A stretch of DNA of 64,000 nucleotides, taken from contig NZ_JAUSWJ010000001.1 in NCBI RefSeq assembly GCF_030815145.1, positions 4,206,501 to 4,270,500 of the forward strand. Reading direction: 5' to 3'. Under the pieces are notes generated by a model. That model was not told the origin of the DNA. It ran no database searches and saw only the letters and a list, made by a program, of their open reading frames with translations. Position 1 is the first letter of the stretch. Each line of letters opens with the position of its first letter. Positions 3,528-6,938 of the stretch are shown here, piece after piece. This DNA comes from Kaistia geumhonensis (GTDB lineage: Bacteria > Pseudomonadota > Alphaproteobacteria > Rhizobiales > Kaistiaceae). Made by a program: the position numbers and the translations under genes.

Positions 3528-3654
3528 CTAGTCGCGCCGCCCCGCCAAGGCAAGCCGAAGCTGGTGCCATGGCGCCGCGCCACGCCATCGTGATTTGACG
3601 GCGGTGGCGCACGCCCTAGCTGTTGGGCAATCCATCGAAGGGACGGAGCGCATC

Positions 3655-4611
3655 ATGCTGATCAGGCGGCGTCGGGGCTGGGAAATCGCCGAGCGGGAAG
3701 CGACGCCGGAGTCTGTCTTCCTGAACAGGCGCGCGATCCTCGCAGCCGGCGGCTTCGGCCTCGCCGCGCTGGCGCTCCCGCGCGCGCCCCGGGCTGAGGA
3801 CGCCGATCCGGGCGCGTCGCTTTTTCCGGCCAAGCGCAATCCGCGCTACACCATCGAGCGCGATGTCACGCCGGAGGACATCAACCTCCACTACAACAAC
3901 TTCTACGAATACGGCACCGACAAGGACCTCGCGGCGGCGGCGGAAGCGCTGAAGACACGGCCCTGGACGATTGCGATCGACGGCCTTGTCGAAGCACCCA
4001 AGACCGTCGCCATCGACGATCTCTTCAAGGCGATGACGTTCGAGGAACGGCTCTACCGCCACCGCTGCGTCGAGGCCTGGTCGATGACCGTGCCCTGGAC
4101 CGGCTTTCCGCTCGCGGCGCTCGTCGCCTATGCGAAGCCGCTGTCGGGCGCCAAATATGTGCGCTTCGAGACCTTCATGGATCCGGCCATGGCGCCCGGC
4201 CAGAACGAGCCGTTCTATCCGTGGCCTTACGTCGAGGGGCTGACCATGGCGGAGGCGACCAACGAGCTCGCCTTCATGGTGACCGGGGCCTATGGCAAGC
4301 CGCTGCCCAATCAGATGGGTGCGCCGATCCGCCTGCATACTCCGTGGAAGTACGGTTTCAAGAGCATCAAGTCGATCGTGAAGGTGTCATTCGTCGAGGA
4401 GCAGCCGCTCAATTTCTGGCAGCAGTTGCAGTCCTCGGAATACGGCTTCTGGGCGAATGTGAACCCCGAGGTGCCGCATCCGCGCTGGAGCCAGGCGACC
4501 GAAACCGTGCTCGGCACCAACCAGCGCATCCCGACGCAGCTCTTCAACGGCTACGGCGCGTTCGTCGCCGACCTCTACAAGGACCTGCAGGGGCAGCCGC
4601 TCTATATGTGA
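3655..4611 (+). CDS. msrP: Protein-methionine-sulfoxide reductase catalytic subunit MsrP (YedY), Mo-pterin enzyme
   Basis: A 318-residue periplasmic molybdoenzyme that reduces methionine sulfoxide in oxidised envelope proteins. The N-terminus is a twin-arginine signal (R25-R26 followed by a hydrophobic stretch to about 42), and the molybdenum-binding cysteine is C138 in YRHRCVEAWSM. Further family signatures include the LHTPWKYGFKSIKSI segment. The start at 3655 follows GGACGGAG with 6 bases of spacing. The usual partner, the haem-containing membrane subunit MsrQ (YedZ), is not adjacent; the next gene downstream is a lysR on the other strand. The enzyme therefore needs an electron donor encoded elsewhere. 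Confidence 0.93.
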   Translation: MLIRRRRGWEIAEREATPESVFLNRRAILAAGGFGLAALALPRAPRAEDADPGASLFPAKRNPRYTIERDVTPEDINLHYNNFYEYGTDKDLAAAAEALKTRPWTIAIDGLVEAPKTVAIDDLFKAMTFEERLYRHRCVEAWSMTVPWTGFPLAALVAYAKPLSGAKYVRFETFMDPAMAPGQNEPFYPWPYVEGLTMAEATNELAFMVTGAYGKPLPNQMGAPIRLHTPWKYGFKSIKSIVKVSFVEEQPLNFWQQLQSSEYGFWANVNPEVPHPRWSQATETVLGTNQRIPTQLFNGYGAFVADLYKDLQGQPLYM

Positions 4612-4648
4612 GCAGTCCTGCTGCGGCGCATCAGCCGGAGTGCATCGC

Positions 4649-4684
4649 AAAAAGAAAAGGCCGGGCGCTCTTGCGAGGCCCGGC
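4649..4684 (-). terminator. Rho-independent terminator (minus strand)
   Basis: A 7-bp GC stem GCCGGGC/GCCCGGC (4678-4684 with 4660-4666, loop 11 bases) is followed on the minus strand by CTTTTCTTTTT. The U-rich tail exists only on the minus strand, so it does not serve msrP; it ends either the candidate sRNA or the lysR transcript 390 bases upstream. Confidence 0.75.
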
Positions 4685-4792
4685 TAAGTCTTTGTTGCTG
4701 CGGCAGGGAAGACGCAGCAAACACCTTCCAGAGGGAACAGTTGAGGTCCACGGGCGGCAGGGAGGAGGAAGCCGCCGGCAACGCATCAACTG
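4649..4792 (-). ncRNA. Candidate trans-acting sRNA with CCUCCUCCC loop (alpha-r14 / anti-Shine-Dalgarno type)
   Basis: A 432-base gene-free gap (4612-5043) holds, on the minus strand, a promoter-like sequence, three consecutive hairpins and a strong terminator. Hairpin 1 has the stem GGCGGC/GCCGCC (4771-4776 with 4753-4758) and a 12-base loop TTCCTCCTCCCT. Hairpin 2 has the stem TTGCTGCG/CGCAGCAA (4713-4720 with 4695-4702) and the pyrimidine loop TCTTCCCTGC. Hairpin 3 is a Rho-independent terminator at 4684-4649. CCUCCUCCC exposed in hairpin loops is the hallmark of alphaproteobacterial sRNAs that pair with ribosome binding sites (the alpha-r14/NfeR1 family and the CcsR or 'cuckoo' RNAs). The 5' end near 4792 is inferred from the promoter. 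The alternative is a long lysR 3' UTR. Confidence 0.6.
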
Positions 4793-4798
4793 ATGAGA

Positions 4799-4827
4799 GA
4801 TATGGAGCGATCGCTCTGCACAAACAA
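4799..4827 (-). promoter_or_regulatory. Putative sigma70 promoter of the candidate sRNA, with palindrome in the spacer
   Basis: On the minus strand TTGTTT (4827-4822) and CATATC (4804-4799) are 17 bases apart, giving an expected start near 4792. The spacer contains the perfect 12-base palindrome GAGCGATCGCTC (4805-4816), placed where a repressor would block RNA polymerase. The -10 hexamer is weak (3 of 6 matches), so this is a moderate call. Confidence 0.4.
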
Positions 4828-5043
4828 CCGGCATCAATGCATTGCAGCTATGCATTTCCGGTGGATCAGAACAAAAATTCGTGAAGGGTCGAATTCTGGA
4901 ATGTCGAGCGTCGATCGGCGGTCGATCCGGAAAGATTTTGCGCCAATTCGCTGAAAAAACGCTACGGCGGCCATAGGGCTTTTCGCAGTGCAGCGTAGTG
5001 CATGCAATGCTGGCGCCGAAATGTGCAGTTTTTGGACCTGCCT

Positions 5044-5934
5044 TCAGAATTGCCAGTTCTGCGCCTTGGCGAGCATGAAGTCGCGGAAAGCGGTGACGCG
5101 GGCCGAATTCTTGAGTTCGGCCGGATAGCAGAAATAGGTCGGGAAGCTCGGCACCTGCGCTTCCGGCATCAGCTTCACCAGCGGCGAACCTTCCTCGATC
5201 ATGTAGTCGGGAAGGATGGCGATACCCGTGCCCCGCTCCACCGCCGCCTTGATGGCGTAGATGTTGTTGATGCGGACGATCGGCTCGCGGGGATTGTCGG
5301 TCGAGCGGCCGGCGATCTCCAGCCAGTTCACGTCGCGGATGTTGGGCGGAACCGGCACGCCGAAGGTGACGATCCGGTGATGGTCGAGATCTTCCAGCGT
5401 TTCCGGCTTGCCGAAGCGGGCCACGTAATCGGGCGAGGCGTAGACGTGATAATGCGTCGTGAACAGGCGGCGCTGGATGAGATCCGGCTGCACCGGCTGT
5501 CGGAGGCGGATTGCGACGTCGGCCTGCCGCATGGTGAGGTCCAGCTCCTGATCGTCGAGGATCAGGTGCAGGTTCACCTGCGGATGCAGGTCGACGAATT
5601 CGTTGAGCCGCTCGGTGAGCCAGGTCGAGCCGAGCGCGACCGTCGTGGTGATGCGGAGCGTGCCTGTTGGCTTCTCGCGTGAATCCGTCAGGCGGATCCT
5701 CACGCCCTCGAGCTTCATCATCACGTCCTGCGAGGCGCGGAAGAGAAGCTCGCCCTGCTCGGAAAGGATCAGTCCGCGGGCATGGCGGTGGAAGAGTGGC
5801 ACGCCGAGATCCTGCTCGAGCGCGCTCACCTGCCGCGAGACCGCCGACTGGCTCATGCCGAGCTGCTCGCCGGCATGGGTGAACGACCCGGCTTGCGCCG
5901 CCGCGTGAAAGATCCTGAGCTTGTCCCAGTCCAT
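5044..5934 (-). CDS. LysR-family transcriptional regulator
   Basis: A 296-residue LTTR. Residues 1-60 are the winged helix-turn-helix (KLRIFHAAAQAGSFTHAGEQ then SQSAVSRQVSALEQDLG), followed by the linker helix and a two-lobed effector domain ending near 290. It lies 35 bases downstream of trxB on the same strand and probably shares its transcript. The lrp/trxB/lysR neighbourhood recurs in rhizobia as I remember it, which hints at redox or amino-acid control, but the target is not readable here. I chose ATG 5934 because the protein then begins at the usual first helix (MDWDKLRIF). Confidence 0.9.
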   Translation of the reverse strand: MDWDKLRIFHAAAQAGSFTHAGEQLGMSQSAVSRQVSALEQDLGVPLFHRHARGLILSEQGELLFRASQDVMMKLEGVRIRLTDSREKPTGTLRITTTVALGSTWLTERLNEFVDLHPQVNLHLILDDQELDLTMRQADVAIRLRQPVQPDLIQRRLFTTHYHVYASPDYVARFGKPETLEDLDHHRIVTFGVPVPPNIRDVNWLEIAGRSTDNPREPIVRINNIYAIKAAVERGTGIAILPDYMIEEGSPLVKLMPEAQVPSFPTYFCYPAELKNSARVTAFRDFMLAKAQNWQF

Positions 5935-5969: not shown

Positions 5970-6938
5970 CTATTCGGCCGCGACGGCCGTCATGTCCGCG
6001 ACCGGATTGGCCGCCAGCCAGCGCTCGGCCTCCAGCGCCGCCATGCATCCCTGTCCCGCGGCCGTCACGGCCTGGCGGAAGACCTCGTCCGTCACGTCGC
6101 CGGCCGCGAAGACGCCGGGGACGCTGGTCGCCGTCGAATCCGGCGCCGTCCAGATATAGCCCGACGGCTTCAGCCTGACCTGCCCGGCAACGATCTCGGT
6201 GGCCGGCGCATGGCCGATGGCAATGAAGACACCGTCCGTCTCGACGTCGGTCACGGCGCCGGTCTCGACATTGCGCAGCTTGAGGCCGGTGACCGAAGGC
6301 GGGAAGCCGCCCTTGCCGGTCACTTCCTCGATCACGCTGTTCCAGACGACCTTGACGTTGTCGCGCGCCAGGAGGCGGTTCTGCATGATCCGCTCGGCTC
6401 GGAAATGATCGCGGCGGTGCACGATCGTCACCGACTTCGCGATATGCGAGAGATAGAGCGCCTCCTCGACGGCGGTGTTGCCGCCGCCGACGACATAGAT
6501 GTCCTTGCCGCGATAGAAGAAGCCGTCGCAGGTGGCGCAGGCCGAGACGCCGAAGCCCTTGAAGCGCTGCTCGCTCTCGAGCCCCAGCCACCGCGCCTGC
6601 GCGCCCGTGGCGAGGATCAGCGTGTCGGCCGTGTAGACCTCGCCGGAATCGCCCTTGAGGACGAAGGGACGCTGCGAGAGATCGGCCTCGATGATGTGGT
6701 CGGTGACCATCCGCGTGCCGACATGCTCGGCCTGCAGTCGCATCTGCTCCATGAGCCACGGGCCCTGGATGACGTCGGCGAAGCCGGGATAATTCTCGAC
6801 ATCGGTGGTGATGGTCAGCTGGCCACCCGGCTGGACGCCGGAAATGAGCACGGGTTCCAGCATCGCGCGCGCGGCGTAGATCGCGGCGGTGTATCCTGCG
6901 GGGCCGGAACCGACGATGATGAGCTTGGCGTGTTGCAT
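5970..6938 (-). CDS. trxB: Thioredoxin-disulfide reductase
   Basis: The 322-residue flavoenzyme passes electrons from NADPH through FAD to thioredoxin. It has the FAD-binding GSGPAGYTAAIYAAR motif at residues 10-24, the redox-active C134-A-T-C137 in SACATCDGFFY, the NADPH-binding GGGNTAVEEAL motif, and the C-terminal FAAGDVTDEVFRQA FAD motif. Length is that of the low-molecular-weight bacterial enzyme. It is divergent from lrp, with a perfect 16-base palindrome in the shared upstream region, and is followed by lysR in the same direction. Confidence 0.95.
   Translation of the reverse strand: MQHAKLIIVGSGPAGYTAAIYAARAMLEPVLISGVQPGGQLTITTDVENYPGFADVIQGPWLMEQMRLQAEHVGTRMVTDHIIEADLSQRPFVLKGDSGEVYTADTLILATGAQARWLGLESEQRFKGFGVSACATCDGFFYRGKDIYVVGGGNTAVEEALYLSHIAKSVTIVHRRDHFRAERIMQNRLLARDNVKVVWNSVIEEVTGKGGFPPSVTGLKLRNVETGAVTDVETDGVFIAIGHAPATEIVAGQVRLKPSGYIWTAPDSTATSVPGVFAAGDVTDEVFRQAVTAAGQGCMAALEAERWLAANPVADMTAVAAE

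Follow-up and report, generated by a model that had tools for sequence, protein, structure and literature searches.

The gap between msrP and lysR in the genome of Kaistia geumhonensis very probably encodes a divergent ortholog of AbcR1 (alpha-r15), with its own promoter at about position 4792 and its terminator at about position 4649 of the window, i.e., of the whole 64-kb stretch of DNA that was analysed and to which all positions below refer. Judging by sequence comparison, it is well supported that the conserved unit is a real feature, namely an RNA gene, and that its product would be a trans-acting anti-Shine-Dalgarno small RNA (sRNA) equipped with its own promoter and terminator. The homology of this sRNA with AbcR is well supported too, whereas its expression, its control by LsrB and its targets are presumed from the rhizobial relatives. 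The gap (4612-5043) is bordered by msrP (3595-4611, plus strand), recognized by sequence and locus comparison as the convergent neighbour, and by lysR (5044-5934, minus strand), the protein of which (296 aa) appears LsrB/VtlR-like and is a likely activator. It is preceded by trxB (5970-6938, minus strand), coding for thioredoxin reductase and conserved as the upstream neighbour in the locus comparison. The sRNA gene thus follows the lsrB-like gene in the same direction. The G+C content of the gap is 0.56 vs 0.68 in the window, in agreement with the original prediction that this gap has less GC than its surroundings. The host genome is a single contig of 4.59 Mb.

The predicted AbcR1-type sRNA of approximately 144 nt occupies positions 4792-4649 of the minus strand; its covariance-model match (model R1, see below) spans 4791-4652, and its 5' end is placed at 4792 or 4791. 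As follows from folding and alignment, stem-loop 1 (4792-4738) consists of a closing stem, in which CAGUUGA (4792-4786) pairs with UCAACUG (4744-4738), and an inner hairpin (4776-4753), in which GGCGGC and GCCGCC enclose the 12-nt loop TTCCTCCTCCCT. This loop contains the 9-mer CCTCCTCCC (4768-4760) and, within the latter, the anti-Shine-Dalgarno motif aSD1, CUCCUCCC (4767-4760), which is kept in relatives and bears the name given to it in PMC8844928. Further downstream, the sequence reads as an aSD2-like stretch, GUUCCCUCUGG (4738-4728), that has one C less than the published UUCCCCUC, and then as stem-loop 2 (4720-4695; TTGCTGCG-TCTTCCCTGC-CGCAGCAA) with the pyrimidine loop UCUUCCCUGC, also supported by folding and alignment. 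The predicted Rho-independent terminator (4684-4649) comprises a stem (4684-4660) and the U-rich tail CTTTTCTTTTT (4659-4649), and is preceded by the A-rich CAACAAAGACUUA; by reading and folding it corresponds to the AbcR-type terminator with an A/U-rich stretch before it. The terminator scan did not list 4684-4649, so that this element rests on comparison and folding. All the hairpins, the loop, the terminator stem and the tail named in the original prediction were found on the minus strand where it had placed them; the first hairpin, described there as a separate element at 4753-4776, is present but is only the tip of the longer stem-loop closed by CAGUUGA/UCAACUG.

The 144-nt RNA has a folding energy of -61.0 kcal/mol vs -45.2 ± 3.6 kcal/mol for shuffled sequences (z -4.4; none of 200 shuffles was as low). 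The modelled fold comprises three hairpins; aSD1 occupies the loop of the first, which is followed by the aSD2-like stretch. When 62-nt 5' pieces of 19 sequences, the window included, were folded, aSD1 appeared in the apical loop of stem-loop 1 in all 19, its last base being drawn as paired in one of them (L017).

Using blastn, the element was found in 18 of 60 relatives, and these 18 include the 13 further Kaistia genomes without exception. In the alignment of 12 Kaistia gaps (the window and 11 others, from 12 of the 14 genomes available for the genus), the mean identity of the 11 gaps to the window was 0.91 in the RNA (4792-4649) and 0.73 in the promoter (4853-4793), as compared to 0.44 toward lysR and 0.36 toward msrP, so that identity rises and falls at the predicted edges of the promoter and the RNA. 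It is this contrast that argues for a real feature; a gap lacking conservation in relatives, which would have spoken against the RNA, was looked for and did not occur. The motifs are preserved to different extents. Of the 16 sequences L001-L016, to which the window belongs, 8 have the complete 9-mer CCTCCTCCC and all 16 its inner CTCCTCCC; aSD1 is present in 16/16 of the same set and in 17/19 of the set extended to L019, and UCCUCCC in 19/19. The full aSD2 form is found in 8 of the 14 Kaistia genomes, the other six being one C short, including the host of the window, where UUCCCUC is read.

When the fold of the window sequence itself served as the structure for an alignment of 16 sequences (A2), 95.3% of the cells paired, vs 36-50% for slid structures. 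Twenty-one cells are changed on both sides vs a shuffled mean of 7.5, and none of 500 shuffles reached this number. Changes on both sides affect five pairs (8/500 shuffles reach that), three of which belong to the six pairs of the inner stem of stem-loop 1, and another pair of the same inner stem fails in 9 of the 16 sequences. The search for covarying stems in related genomes that had been advised along with the original prediction therefore yielded both-side changes in excess of every shuffle and a covariation score higher than in any of the 500 shuffles, with further pair types being unexceptional (reached by 150/500 shuffles).

Upstream of the RNA, the sequence and the alignment display a promoter-like pair (4827-4799, minus strand), TTGTTT at -35 (4827-4822) and CATATC at -10 (4804-4799), separated by 17 nt. 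Its presence had been proposed from the letters alone, and it indeed lies within the conserved promoter segment (0.73). By eye, its spacing equals that of a canonical ar15 locus, L100. A scan for promoters of the E. coli type gave no match in the gap, and the promoter call rests on comparison. In Sinorhizobium meliloti, where LsrB drives AbcR1, the promoter PabcR1 is described as having the -35/-10 elements CTTGAC-N17-CTATAT and an LsrB box GCAT-N3-TG-N3-T at -61 to -49 (PMC8844928); in Agrobacterium tumefaciens the same box is reported, and VtlR binds the abcR1 promoter (PMC7486931). The gap of K. geumhonensis contains a predicted LsrB/VtlR box of this consensus, GCATAGCTGCAAT (4853-4841, minus strand), which would occupy -61 to -49 if +1 is 4792, i.e., the layout of PabcR1. 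A survey of 31 loci (19 obtained with blastn and 12 lsrB loci from outside Kaistia) revealed the strict box in 11 of the 14 Kaistia loci and in 15 loci overall; once A or T is permitted as the first base of TG, the numbers rise to 14/14 and 27/31, respectively. The box was not found in L017-L019 and L042. In the 25 loci where both elements matched, the box precedes the -10-like motif by about 47-49 nt. The 64-kb window holds nine strict box matches on both strands, two of them at the locus because the site is palindromic.

The conserved -35/-10 pair and the predicted LsrB box directly upstream of the RNA also speak against its derivation from the 3' end of the lysR mRNA by processing, which we regard as improbable. 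Such an origin would agree with the position of the sRNA on the lysR strand, with a single terminator-like site (4976-4962) between the two genes according to the terminator scan, and with a crude search that found no terminator in the lysR-side part of 8 of 12 Kaistia gaps; however, the homologous PabcR1 is described as an independent promoter in S. meliloti (PMC8844928). The terminator-like stem of the window, at 4962-4976 and with CGTTTTTT, is situated shortly 3' of lysR.

The assignment of the candidate to AbcR1 could not be taken from Rfam directly. The ar15 family (RF02345) gave 19.8 bits at the locus vs a cut-off of 40, being the best of 11 weak Rfam family matches there and covering model positions 1-112 of 112; a scan of five Kaistia-type loci listed no ar15 match at E 0.1. 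Since the curated score was missed, we call the locus an AbcR1 ortholog and not an Rfam ar15 member. A separate model, R1, was built from 21 of the 30 loci that RF02345 had retrieved. All 21 come from families of the order other than Kaistia's own, so that homology was tested without circularity. Eight of the R1 members exceed the Rfam ar15 cut-off and 13 fall below it, so that the link to canonical ar15 runs through intermediates. Two members, L113 (1501-1637) and L129 (1501-1628), are ar15-like and keep the aSD2 stretch, while aSD1, i.e., the UCCUCCC of the first loop, is missing; neither has a matching lysR in the fetched flank.

Searched against the whole host genome, R1 had its best match at the locus (56.6 bits, E 2.4e-12), the next one scoring 22.4 bits. 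The model matches every one of the 14 Kaistia genomes, and in the family it reaches E 1e-5 or better in 23 of the 28 genomes searched. The next matches in the host genome (22.4 and 19.5 bits) were considered as a second AbcR copy and rejected, as they lack CCTCC and by eye resemble coding ends with terminators.

The genomic context points in the same direction. Among 80 lsrB loci, 25 have an R1 match at E 1e-7 or better. All but one of these 25 matches are on the lysR strand and no more than 1.2 kb after lysR, six of the 24 loci concerned being Kaistia-type and the others possibly including close kin of R1 members. The order trxB-lysR-sRNA is common to the window and two canonical ar15 loci, L100 (127 bits) and L101 (119.9 bits). 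A matching LysR gene is located within the fetched flank in 19 of the 30 RF02345 loci and absent from it in 11; in two nearer relatives of the window, L015 and L016, the RNA is present and the matching LysR is not within reach. S. meliloti AbcR1 and AbcR2 are described as lying in tandem between SMc01226 and lsrB and as folding into three hairpins, the 5' one of which carries UCCUCCC in its loop (PMC3712013). The Kaistia locus thus resembles AbcR1 of S. meliloti and Agrobacterium (RF02345) in its position after lsrB with trxB before the latter, in the LsrB box and the -35/-10 layout, and in a stem-loop 1 with aSD1 in its loop, an aSD2-like stretch and an A-rich stretch before the terminator. 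It differs in the score below the Rfam cut-off, the larger stem-loop 2 with a third UUCCCU loop, the aSD2 shorter by one base, the presence of msrP on the far side and the lack of a second strong copy among the matches in the host genome. Our literature search found nothing joining Kaistia with AbcR, ar15 or sRNA, the Greek spelling of the family name possibly having been missed.

The LysR protein of the window is 92-96% identical to the LysR of four named Kaistia species and 61-62% identical to those of L100 and L101. The L101 protein has cysteines 140, 232, 240 and 269, which in number and spacing repeat those published for A. tumefaciens LsrB (C144, C236, C244 and C273), and the L100 protein has three cysteines, the number given for S. 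meliloti LsrB (PMC11975290). These patterns tie the LysR of the window type to LsrB/VtlR, and the window protein itself looks LsrB-like. Kaistia LsrB possesses a single cysteine, 269, in all five Kaistia proteins examined, and is devoid of the partner residue C144 with which Agrobacterium LsrB is described as forming its redox pair; of ten further LsrB proteins inspected, five contain no cysteine. A record titled Mesorhizobium sp. BR1-1-16 (NZ_JAIUIE010000003.1) carries a Kaistia-like LysR (96%) together with the sRNA, and its name may therefore be wrong.

The original prediction had proposed a small anti-Shine-Dalgarno RNA related to alpha-r14/NfeR1 or CcsR. As regards the kind of RNA, conservation, paired changes and synteny bear it out, but membership in these families is highly improbable. 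In common with NfeR1/alpha-r14 (RF02344) and the cuckoo RNAs, the RNA exposes the anti-Shine-Dalgarno motif CCUCCUCCC in a hairpin loop, and both families do match at the locus, yet the Rfam check returned only 16.6 bits vs a cut-off of 58.8 for ar14 and 13.2 bits vs 65.3 for CcsR1 (RF02791), the latter match being partial (model positions 46-76 of 83). Moreover, the motif recurs in more than one hairpin of alpha-r14 (two in the ar14 consensus, and three aSD motifs are described for NfeR1 in PMC8844928), whereas the RNA of the window has it in one. The host genome also has ar14 loci of its own elsewhere: four matches are strong, three of them over the cut-off (78.1, 69.3 and 62.5 bits) and one just under it (55.4 bits), and the nine ar14 matches up to E 1 do not include the locus of the window. 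Consequently, the family initially suggested is present in this organism, and the RNA of the window does not belong to it. The four strong NfeR1-type matches are located outside the window (G000:C1:3894154-3894276, 3366941-3367062, 1135442-1135562 and 3887766-3887879), two of them about 6 kb apart on opposite strands. There is hardly any chance that the gap holds a SorX-type RNA (RF02784) or a mere terminator shared by the convergent msrP and lysR. A CUCCC-type motif and a GCCGGGC terminator are reminiscent of SorX, but the match of 16.2 bits is under the cut-off of 46.6; it is in Sneathiella that SorX-like RNAs follow lsrB. A terminator alone would leave conserved stem-loops 1 and 2, the aSD motifs and the promoter unexplained.

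By analogy with the rhizobial AbcR1, LsrB would activate the sRNA promoter and Hfq, the gene of which is present in the host genome, would stabilise the sRNA. The aSD1 motif would pair with GGGAGGA-type ribosome-binding sites, chiefly in the mRNAs of ABC-transporter substrate-binding proteins, and by masking these sites would presumably stop translation of nutrient-uptake genes. In S. meliloti, aSD1 and aSD2 are reported to repress target mRNAs, including those of transport genes, by pairing with their leaders (PMC8844928). The target prediction against GGAGG-containing 5' regions that had been recommended was performed with the 30 top-ranking PF13407 matches out of 56 (LacI-type repressors may be among them), 7 of 9 PF13458 and all 15 PF00496 genes, with starts guessed and not annotated, and with 30 of 79 PF00106 (SDR) and 27 of 28 PF00126 (LysR, that of the window among them) genes as controls. 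GGGAGGA, which is complementary to UCCUCCC, was found ahead of 14 of the 30 PF13407 genes vs 6 of the 57 controls (6/30 SDR, 0/27 LysR), with Fisher p 2.5e-4, uncorrected for the ten motifs that were each applied to two groupings. It also precedes 2 of the 7 PF13458 genes and none of the 15 PF00496 ones; AAGGAG and the aSD2 complements were not enriched. Prediction by duplex energy was rejected, as it failed to distinguish pairing with the sRNA from Shine-Dalgarno strength in general: the leaders of the substrate-binding genes show better pairing with 16S rRNA as well (p 0.0018), and the margin by which sRNA pairing exceeds this falls short of significance (p 0.07). The outcome of the recommended check was thus mixed, with enrichment before PF13407 genes, none before PF00496 genes and no separation by energies, and the sequences suggest ABC transporters as the target class.

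Across the order, R1 at E 1e-5 matches 95 of 249 genomes, 21 of which supplied its members (74/228 for the others), as compared to 36 of 249 for RF02345 at E 1e-3; the AbcR family accordingly looks wider than its library entry. In the class outside the order, R1 gave weak matches only (19 genomes besides that of the window at E 1e-3 among 240 searched, 34.9 bits at best), and therefore strict AbcR homology is claimed for Rhizobiales only. Anti-Shine-Dalgarno motifs accompany lsrB more broadly: among 76 loci (four too short were dropped, six Kaistia-type are included), CCTCCC occurs within 700 nt after lsrB on the lysR strand in 54 and on the other strand in 11. In five loci scanned with Rfam, Sneathiella has three and Oceanibacterium two tandem SorX-like RNAs after lsrB, one tandem RNA exceeding the SorX cut-off (50.4 bits vs 46.6). 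Tandem RNAs with the CCUCCC motif lie directly after lsrB in L082 (4024-4660), L067 (4117-4485), L085 (4026-4630) and L090 (4013-4637); L085 and L090 contain three R1 matches each, and by eye TGTTGC-type palindromes stand upstream of several of the tandem RNAs.

It may be, as a tentative and rather speculative generalization, that LsrB is paired across Alphaproteobacteria with anti-Shine-Dalgarno sRNA genes immediately downstream, the RNA being lineage-specific (of the AbcR type in Rhizobiales, Kaistia among them, and in the form of SorX-like tandem arrays in Sneathiella and its relatives). Such a pairing would be older than the thiol redox switch of LsrB, given that Kaistia LsrB has one cysteine in the five proteins examined and half of the ten others have none, and the ancestral job of LsrB would then have been to drive transporter-silencing RNAs and not to sense oxidants. 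The LsrB-AbcR circuit has been described in rhizobia, Agrobacterium and Brucella (PMC3712013 and PMC7486931 among the sources), and the present analysis would extend it to Kaistia, where the Rfam model misses the RNA. Kaistia being a lineage with LsrB and the sRNA but without the cysteine pair, the question of what LsrB senses becomes testable.
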